From IMG/VR virus record IMGVR_UViG_3300010354_000228, positions 1-37,890 of that record: a stretch of 37,890 bases of DNA. The stretch is one strand, 5' to 3'. Positions within the stretch are counted from its first letter, which is position 1, and each line of letters begins with the position of its first letter. A program made the translations under genes and the position numbers. The DNA comes from a virus. The notes beneath the pieces were generated by a model. It was not told the DNA's origin and made no database searches. It saw only the letters and a program-made list of their open reading frames with translations. Below, piece by piece: positions 35,507-37,472 of this stretch.

Positions 35507-35598
35507 CACCTCTTGGCGTAATCAGGAATGAATACTGAGTAGGGTAGCGTGTCCATTGATTTGGATCGGTGCGAGTTCGAATCTCGCAGAGGTGGCAC
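35507..35598 (+). tRNA. Degenerate tRNA-like element
   Basis: A perfect 7-bp acceptor helix (CACCTCT at 35507-35513, AGAGGTG at 35588-35594) and a perfect T arm (GCGAG-TTCGAAT-CTCGC, 35571-35587) are unmistakably tRNA-like. The D stem GCGT/GCGT needs two wobble pairs and its loop is stretched to about 27 nt, and the anticodon stem (TCCA/TGGA) closes a 6-nt loop. It is therefore probably a decayed or specialised tRNA, or a tRNA-derived insertion site, rather than a working adaptor. No CCA is encoded. Confidence 0.45.
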
Positions 35599-35669
35599 AT
35601 AACGTTTTGCAGATTGGCGCAGTTTGCGGTGGCTTGTGGGAAGGGAATTGCGCTAAGATGCTGTTAGGT
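35597..35669 (+). other. attC-like inverted repeat 1 (integron cassette recombination site type)
   Basis: ACATAAC (one base off the RYYYAAC inverse core) and GTTAGGT (perfect GTTRRRY core) bound a 73-nt imperfect palindrome. The internal arms GCAGATTGGCGCA and TGCGCTAAGATGC pair at 10 of 13 positions. Layout R''-L''-loop-L'-R' and length agree with integron attC sites. It lies 34 nt upstream of the first methyltransferase start and begins at the 3' end of the tRNA-like element. Confidence 0.5.
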
Positions 35670-35703
35670 GTCTGGTTTAAAAATTTATAAAAATAGCAAA
35701 GGA

Positions 35704-36357
35704 ATGAAAATACTTAATTTATATGCTTGTTTAGGTGGAAATAGATACCTATGGGGCGAAGAACACGAAATAACGGCAGTAGAACTTGACCCCGAATTAG
35801 CAAGGATGTACAAAGAAAGATTTCCAAATGATACTGTAATTGTAGCAGATGCACACCAATTTTTATTGGAACACTACAAAGAGTATGATTTCATTTGGAC
35901 AAGCCCACCTTGCCCGACCCATAGCCGTATCAGGTTTAACCAAGCGAAAGGCAGAAATGATGATGTTTATAAAGCAGAATACCCCGATATGACTTTATAC
36001 CAAGAAATATTGCTGCTTAATAATTATTTTGAGGGTAGATATGTGGTTGAGAATGTTATACCTTATTACGAGCCATTAATACCGGCTCAAAAACGTGGAA
36101 GGCATTTGTATTGGTGCAATTTTACTTTGCCTACAATTTTAACGAATAGACACGTACAAGTTGGAACCGGTACAGATGAAGTGAAAAAACTTTGTGAGTT
36201 TCATAAAATTGATTTAAGTAGTTATAAAGGCGAACAAAGGAAAGATAAAATTGCACGAAACTTGGTGGATTTTGAAGCTGGTAAAACTATACTTGATACG
36301 GCTATGGGAATTATGAGAAGGCTAAACACACAACAGGGTGCGTTGGAATTTTTATAA
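35704..36357 (+). CDS. DNA cytosine-C5 methyltransferase 1 (minimal)
   Basis: 217 residues from the ATG at 35704; an in-frame GTG upstream at 35668 overlaps the attC-like element and is unlikely. Motif I NLYACLGGN near 5-13, motif IV SPPC with catalytic Cys70, motif VI VVENV with ENV at 116-118, and GRHLYW as motif VIII-like block. It is much shorter than typical C5 methyltransferases and has little room for a target-recognition domain. No restriction enzyme is adjacent, so protection from host restriction is likely. Composition is AT-richer than most of the genome. Confidence 0.85.
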   Translation: MKILNLYACLGGNRYLWGEEHEITAVELDPELARMYKERFPNDTVIVADAHQFLLEHYKEYDFIWTSPPCPTHSRIRFNQAKGRNDDVYKAEYPDMTLYQEILLLNNYFEGRYVVENVIPYYEPLIPAQKRGRHLYWCNFTLPTILTNRHVQVGTGTDEVKKLCEFHKIDLSSYKGEQRKDKIARNLVDFEAGKTILDTAMGIMRRLNTQQGALEFL

Positions 36358-36371
36358 ATTTTTAAACTTGC

Positions 36372-36458
36372 ACCTAACGTTTACAGCTATACGTCAGGTT
36401 TTGTTTTTCACAAAACTTGCGTATGGGTGGTGTTACATGCAGTTTTTGTGTGTTGGAT
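36372..36458 (+). other. attC-like inverted repeat 2
   Basis: ACCTAAC (perfect RYYYAAC) and GTTGGAT (perfect GTTRRRY) bound 87 nt located just after methyltransferase 1 and 22 nt before methyltransferase 2. The interior folds as TACG/CGTA plus CAGGTTTTG/CAAAACTTG. The R''/R' pairing is weaker (5 of 7) than in element 1. Confidence 0.45.
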
Positions 36459-36480
36459 TAGTAAAAATTAAAAATATAAT

Positions 36481-37086
36481 ATGAAGAAAGTATTGAATTT
36501 ATTTGCAGGAATTGGGGGCAACAGAAAACATTGGAAAGATGTAGAAGTTACCGCAATAGAATACAATGAGGAGATTGCTAATGTTTATAAGCAATTACAC
36601 CCAAACGACAATGTTATTGTTGCTGATGCACACGAATATTTGGCTAAACATTGGAGAGAGTTTGATTTTATATGGAGTAGCCCACCATGCCAAAGCCACA
36701 GCAAAGTAAGAATGATGGCAAGTAAAAGTGGAAGTTATGATGCAGTAATGCCTGATATGAGATTGTGGGCAGAAATAATCTTTTTACAGAACTTTACAAA
36801 AAATACGGATATAAAGTTTGTGGTGGAAAATGTAAAACCTTACTACGAACCATTTGTAAAACCAACAACTAAACTTGGCAGACACTTATTTTGGGCAAAC
36901 TTTGAAATACCACAAACTGAAATTAAAGACGGACTTACGCACAATGAAAGAGGTAGTTCTGAAAAAGGTTATTTCGACTTGCGACCATATAAAATGAAAC
37001 ATAGAAAAGACCAAATTATTCGTAATTGCGTTGACCCCAATGTTGGAGAGTACGTTCTTCGGTGTGCGTTGGAAAATTGCATGTAA
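36481..37086 (+). CDS. DNA cytosine-C5 methyltransferase 2 (paralogue)
   Basis: 201 residues. NLFAGIGGN is a textbook motif I, SSPPCQSHSKVR contains catalytic Cys70, VVENV carries ENV at 116-118, and GRHLFWANFEIP is the motif VIII-like block. Catalytic positions coincide exactly with methyltransferase 1, so the pair are homologues, though moderately diverged. Like its partner it lacks an evident target-recognition domain. The two may have different sequence specificities. An attC-like repeat precedes it. Confidence 0.87.
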   Translation: MKKVLNLFAGIGGNRKHWKDVEVTAIEYNEEIANVYKQLHPNDNVIVADAHEYLAKHWREFDFIWSSPPCQSHSKVRMMASKSGSYDAVMPDMRLWAEIIFLQNFTKNTDIKFVVENVKPYYEPFVKPTTKLGRHLFWANFEIPQTEIKDGLTHNERGSSEKGYFDLRPYKMKHRKDQIIRNCVDPNVGEYVLRCALENCM

Positions 37087-37113
37087 CTAGCTTATATGCG
37101 CTATAAATACAGA

Positions 37114-37140
37114 CCTATCTAACCGTATTACTCAGATAGG
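37114..37140 (+). other. Short hairpin after the methyltransferase pair
   Basis: CCTATCT/AGATAGG, 7 bp, 13-nt loop, in the 77-nt gap before the nuclease gene. It contains ATCTAAC, which fits RYYYAAC, but there is no matching GTTRRRY nearby, so it is not a complete third attC-like site. No T tail. Confidence 0.35.
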
Positions 37141-37163: not shown

Positions 37164-37472
37164 ATGACATACAAACTATTCACCGAAACACTCAGAGCGT
37201 TCGACATTGAAACGCCAGAAGCAGAGTATAAATTCCACGACAAACGCAAATGGAGATTTGATTACTGCTTTCCACGTCACAAAGTCGCTATTGAGATTGA
37301 GGGCGGTGTATGGACACGAGGACGGCATACACGTGGCTCAGGCTTTGTTAAGGACATGGAGAAATACAACGAAGCGACACGGCTCGGATGGCGTATATTG
37401 CGCTTCACTCCGTCCGATCTCGGAAAAAATGCCACCTATGAATTGATCAGAGAAACATTGTACGGCAAGTAA
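37164..37472 (+). CDS. Small PD-(D/E)xK-type endonuclease (DUF559/VRR-NUC-like)
   Basis: 102 residues. WRFDYCFPRHKVAIEIEGG has the D...ExE arrangement of restriction-endonuclease-fold nucleases, followed by GRHTRGSGFVKDMEKYNEAT and WRILRFTPSDL, the typical Vsr/DUF559 terminal strand. Phage enzymes of this type act as Holliday-junction or mismatch-type nucleases, so it may resolve replication intermediates before packaging. It is convergent with the holin gene, with only 2 nt between stop codons and no terminator visible. Confidence 0.78.
   Translation: MTYKLFTETLRAFDIETPEAEYKFHDKRKWRFDYCFPRHKVAIEIEGGVWTRGRHTRGSGFVKDMEKYNEATRLGWRILRFTPSDLGKNATYELIRETLYGK

Follow-up and report, generated by a model that had tools for sequence, protein, structure and literature searches.

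Does a pair of methyltransferase genes in a phage, each preceded by an inverted repeat, amount to a set of integron cassettes, and if so, what could move them? This question arises from a virus record of 37,890 bp in which tail, portal, and terminase genes are recognized; we analyzed all of it and refer to it as the window. The initial annotation had likened the two genes to gene cassettes, and we find that the segment is almost certainly composed of integron-type cassettes. For the terminase of this phage, the closest record shows no more than 31% identity, and the phage host probably lies within Bacteroidota, in Flavobacterium or a relative. The features on which the argument draws are as follows.

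35603-37086, minus strand: two-cassette integron-type array, 1,484 bp (775 + 709)
35603-36377, minus strand: cassette 1, 775 bp, with G|TT cut points on the minus strand; methyltransferase 1 antisense to the array
35596-35672, minus strand: attC of cassette 1 (covariance model R1, 27.6 bits, E 0.0023; DNA fold z -2.5)
36378-37086, minus strand: cassette 2, the head cassette, 709 bp; methyltransferase 2 antisense to the array
36371-36441, minus strand: attC of cassette 2 (model R1, 37.3 bits, E 2.6e-5; DNA fold z -3.4)
37087-37132, minus strand: attI-like head site, core TAGCGCATATAAGCTAG|TTA
35704-36357, plus strand: methyltransferase 1, predicted solitary minimal C5-cytosine enzyme, 217 aa, motifs SPPC and VENV
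36481-37086, plus strand: methyltransferase 2, predicted solitary minimal C5-cytosine enzyme, 201 aa, motifs SPPC and VENV

A two-cassette array read against its genes

The observation of an inverted repeat before each minimal C5 methyltransferase is confirmed, and both repeats have RYYYAAC/GTTRRRY cores and paired inner arms. The first lies at 35596-35672, as described, with 10 of 13 inner pairs matched by eye. The second exists at 36371-36441, but its right boundary had been drawn too far out: the right core is GTTACATGCA (from 36434) and not the GTTGGATTAG implied by an end at 36458. To score such sites we built covariance model R1 from 20 attC sites of other genomes, leaving out the window sites and the two closest relatives found. 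TAACA and CGTTA are present in all 20 aligned training sites, double-sided changes (74 of them) fall in 12 of the 13 inner pairs, and the covariation of 0.511 compares with 0.126 for shuffled alignments (0/500) and at most 0.118 when slid. A covariance-model search for attC had been proposed as the check on the cassette reading, and model R1 found both sites (E 0.0023 and 2.6e-5) with no further match at E ≤ 1 across the 37,890 bp. The fold z-scores listed above compare single-strand folding with dinucleotide shuffles. In seven Flavobacterium phages, some of which gave training sites, the model returned 66 sites on one strand only. It also placed the class 1 aadA attC correctly and on the correct strand with 10.3 bits, so that the class 1 attC has, distantly, the architecture of the R1 sites.

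The cassette boundaries point the same way. Those of cassette 1 were inferred from precise cassette junctions in the phage pairs described below, and its start and end, R' GTTAGGTG and R'' CACCTAAC, are complementary at 8 of 8 positions. Cassette 2 starts with GTTACATGCA and ends with TGCATGTAAC, complementary at 10 of 10, and its core encloses the TAA stop codon of methyltransferase 2. Both cassettes, that is, have a start (TTRRRY) complementary to their own R''; across the window, a GTT 10-mer finds a perfect reverse complement at a distance of 130-1200 bp in only 3 of 699 cases. Arrays were traced with a linked-cassette detector because the R'' and R' in an array belong to neighboring cassettes; on 14 kb of shuffled sequence it reports 0-1 links by chance on each strand. 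We ruled out a further, third cassette on the left side, the partner of GTTATGTG being absent from the window.

The minus strand reads attI, cassette 2, attC, cassette 1, attC, with both genes antisense. The gene-cassette interpretation is supported by the attC model and by start/end complementarity, but the strand and array direction are opposite to those assumed; the reversed gene polarity explains why each gene seemed to have a repeat in front of it while the last had none behind it. The segment was said to be AT-richer than its neighborhood, and the effect is weak (GC 36.0% in the array, 38.1% in the left flank, 42.3% in the whole window). The tRNA-like element said to precede it, at 35507-35596, extends up to the left edge of the array and has a canonical T-arm GCGAGTTCGAATCTCGC and a 7-bp acceptor (CACCTCT/AGAGGTG), but neither ARAGORN nor Rfam called anything in the window.

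At the head of the array stands the attI-like site. A weight matrix built from 13 chromosomal attI sites only scores the window head at 18.5 and the next best position on either strand at -5.3; the score is below the 43-49 of other phage heads, as it is chiefly near the core that the window site follows the consensus. The TAGCGCATATAAGCTAG|TTA 20-mer pattern reappears, slightly varied, in 13 other viral contigs, with different first cassettes, and in 5 of 249 Flavobacterium genomes, in none of which, nor in the remainder of the 249, does a reversed control pattern occur. The window site also matches the attI that adjoins the integrase of Flavobacterium chromosomal integrons, and we regard it as very probably an attI. 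One Flavobacterium genome (G616; contigs L220, L222, L223, and L227) has four attI-like heads with a different sequence after each. The half-site TAGCGCATATAA (window 37087-37104, minus strand) resembles the XerC arm of dif sites, a likeness that may be relevant to how this attI arose.

Gene polarity sets the phage arrays apart from chromosomal ones. In classical notation an array is read from the head A|GTT through the gene, R'', and the stem to CG|TT, and the gene runs along the array; neither window gene does so. Scoring the longer open frame in linked cassettes, we counted 37 antisense and 2 sense among 39 phage cassettes (window included), against 46 sense and 4 antisense among 50 chromosomal ones (Fisher p ~4e-18, a value that overstates independence since the cassettes are partly related). 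Phages may have retained antisense cassettes because genes so placed are read in the same direction as the phage operon.

Both encoded proteins are predicted methyltransferases (methyltransferase 1: PF00145 at 4.2e-6 and PHROG 363 at 2e-12; methyltransferase 2: PF00145 at 1.8e-11 and PHROG 363 at 6e-20), so short that little room would be left for the usual target-recognition domain. The only relative of methyltransferase 2 found in bacterial genomes is a distant one in Flavobacterium nitrogenifigens. The enzymes would methylate phage DNA and block host restriction, and this predicted anti-restriction role is likely.

A candidate host integrase

The window combines at least two attC sites with the absence of an integrase gene in cis, the arrangement known as a CALIN, and it has the attI at the array head, but not the intI gene in cis, of a complete integron. 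No tyrosine recombinase (PF00589) was found in the window record, which may be a fragment, in six Flavobacterium phage isolates, or in the 13 attI-bearing contigs, several of which are fragments; recombinases are present in two further contigs that encode methyltransferase 2 relatives. With no integrase in these phages, action of a host enzyme in trans is the economical reading. We therefore describe the enzyme found beside the matching attI in Flavobacterium chromosomes. On L221 and L225, and in broken form on L226, a tyrosine recombinase gene lies ~100 bp upstream of the attI and is co-directional with the array.

L221, 7136-8221, minus strand: XerA-like integrase beside a conserved attI and attC arrays
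L225, 6345-7388, minus strand: XerA-like integrase beside a conserved attI and attC arrays

Relatives of this enzyme occur in 91 of 249 Flavobacterium genomes, most of them 58-80% identical. We fetched 20 integrase regions, 13 of which exceed 5 kb, and 10 of those 13 have linked, same-strand arrays of attC sites, with no more than one link on the opposite strand; the covariance model agrees. Five contigs (L270, L272, L274, L276, and L281) stop 0.1-1.5 kb downstream of the integrase gene, which is what one would expect if assembly fails at repeated attC arrays. Against NF040815 (XerA / integron integrase, cut-off 220) the L225 protein scores 227 bits and the L221 protein 217.5. TIGR02249 matches the candidate in two stretches below its cut-off, and alignment with an IntI leaves ~31 consecutive residues missing: the IntI-specific additional domain is absent from the candidate host enzyme. 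This extra domain has been regarded as defining IntI and as necessary for activity (PMC9668308).

Could the acting enzyme instead be an IntI of the classical type, or a different recombinase such as XerCD? IntI1 recombines attC2 of the Polaribacter phage P12002L with attI1 in E. coli (PMC9892861), and model R1 recognizes the class 1 attC, weakly as noted but in the right place and on the right strand. However, a classical IntI as the common enzyme of Bacteroidia was rejected when only 1 of 395 genomes passed the IntI cut-off, whereas the XerA-like enzyme has the genomic distribution given above and, where examined, matching attI sites and arrays beside it. IntegronFinder 2.0 lists one complete integron in Bacteroidetes proper, that of Salinibacter ruber (PMC9024848). 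We judge a classical IntI or other recombinase unlikely. The XerA-like chromosomal integron integrase of the host, in our reading, would excise and insert the cassettes in trans, and it is reasonably probable that this enzyme acts on the phage cassettes.

Cassette movement among related phages

The repeats had been proposed for a search beside other genes, and they do occur beside other genes in Bacteroidota phages and in Flavobacterium chromosomes. The attC of cassette 2 shares 96.8% identity, confined to a stretch of 62 bp, with a spacer of the Flavobacterium phage mymlan6-1 that separates two other, unrelated methyltransferases. Mymlan6-1 and its relatives carry arrays of methyltransferase and small genes with attC-type sites between them, and the backbone adjoining the array is common to 46 phage records. 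Pairs of isolates from one study with otherwise near-identical arrays could be compared. One 506-bp cassette distinguishes mumin6-1 from mumin6-4; a 342-bp cassette at the head distinguishes snork9-1 from snork6-2, two phages that also show smaller differences elsewhere in the region. A 439-bp cassette lies inside the array of lillamy9-6 (from 4738) and at the head of that of lillamy9-7 (from 1138), where the relocated copy forms a 444-bp identical block and the former place is closed. Every breakpoint falls within the GTTA core. The junctions have about 5-11 nt in common, too little for ordinary homologous recombination. At the level of genome comparison, precise gain or loss and relocation of cassettes between close isolated phages are shown.

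These isolates have a head of their own. In the Baltic phages (L113-L129) the head TCATGTAATATTGTAG|TTA is unrelated to the attI consensus and its attI score is below 0, and a second kind of docking site may therefore exist. As the movement was observed in isolates with this different head, site usage may differ from that of the window. For the window phage itself we searched for the exact empty site and for a near-identical relative and found neither; the empty-site search did bring up a contig in which this head is followed by a different cassette. For the flanking gene at 37164, relatives reach ~78% DNA identity at best, and none gave an empty allele. Insertion in the window phage is thus inferred from its relatives.

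The array could also be a passive relic: homologous or illegitimate recombination would have copied its cassettes out of a chromosomal integron, and in phages they would no longer move. The phages do lack an integrase, and off-target recombination has been suggested for phage CALINs (PMC9892861). Set against this are the single-cassette differences and the relocation, with breakpoints at G|TT cores that have only about 5-7 nt in common, in the isolates compared above, which come from a single study, and the same attI followed by many different first cassettes; a passive relic is improbable. That the repeats are ordinary terminators or the ends of an unrelated insertion element is largely refuted and hardly credible, for although each forms a hairpin in intergenic DNA 5' of a gene, the pair matches an attC model with covariation, their variable R cores are complementary within each cassette, and same-model sites stand at cassette borders that move in relatives.

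We are accordingly confident in reading the window segment as an integrase-less integron in a phage of a Bacteroidota host, with a host-type attI, two attC cassettes, and a host integrase that would act in trans.

Known systems and meaning for phage and host

The initial annotation expected attC sites with anti-restriction genes to be unusual in a phage, but attC sites with methyltransferases in virulent phages have a precedent: a case in Polaribacter phage P12002L was reported in 2023, in a publication that describes CALINs of this and other virulent phages, methyltransferases among their cargo, and recombination of a phage attC by IntI1 (PMC9892861). P12002L, a virulent Bacteroidota phage, resembles the window in having attC cassettes with solitary methyltransferases and no integrase; by contrast, the accessible part of the publication describes no host-type attI in that phage and no natural cassette movement, and treats its attC directions as divergent (PMC9892861). 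Our model accommodates P12002L: it has a linked array at 38036-39242, to which the methyltransferase gene gp54 is antisense. Vibrio-type sedentary chromosomal integrons and class 1 integrons resemble the window in attI, attC with R''/L''/L'/R', G|TT crossover, head insertion, and arrays, and differ in that the window is a phage without intI, with antisense genes and a candidate host integrase without the IntI-specific insertion. The Baltic Flavobacterium phages (Muminvirus, Lillamyvirus, and Hattifnattvirus; PMC7077304) share methyltransferase cassette arrays with the window, and one attC 97% identical over 62 bp, but have the TCATGTAATATTGTAG|TTA head and longer arrays. A search by term found no mention of an integron or integrase in that paper (PMC7077304).

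Within the literature covered, four things look new: a phage-borne, host-type attI without integrase; consistent reversed polarity; natural single-cassette moves; and a flavobacterial integron class whose XerA-like integrase lacks the IntI-specific insertion, of which no description was found in the partial coverage of databases and literature. We lean toward the broadest form of this proposal: a widespread Flavobacterium chromosomal integron class, with a XerA-like integrase that lacks the IntI-specific domain, and phage "satellite integrons" that combine the host attI with anti-restriction cassettes of reversed polarity, lack an integrase of their own, and are loaded by the host enzyme acting in trans.

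The consequence for the phage would be that cassette swapping retunes host range. The LMO9 phages that plate 3-4 orders lower on LMO6 all lack one particular methyltransferase (PMC7077304), and these plating data together with the cassette exchange suggest that phages retune restriction evasion by swapping. If this is true, swapping of anti-restriction cassettes through the integron machinery of the host would explain host-range change in a single step, and it is directly testable with the existing LMO6/LMO9 phage isolates. For the hosts, the integron class would escape searches of the IntegronFinder type (described in PMC9668308), in which the IntI-specific domain is a requirement; an attC recombinase that lacks this supposedly necessary domain would, if true, bear on the origin of integrons from Xer recombinases.
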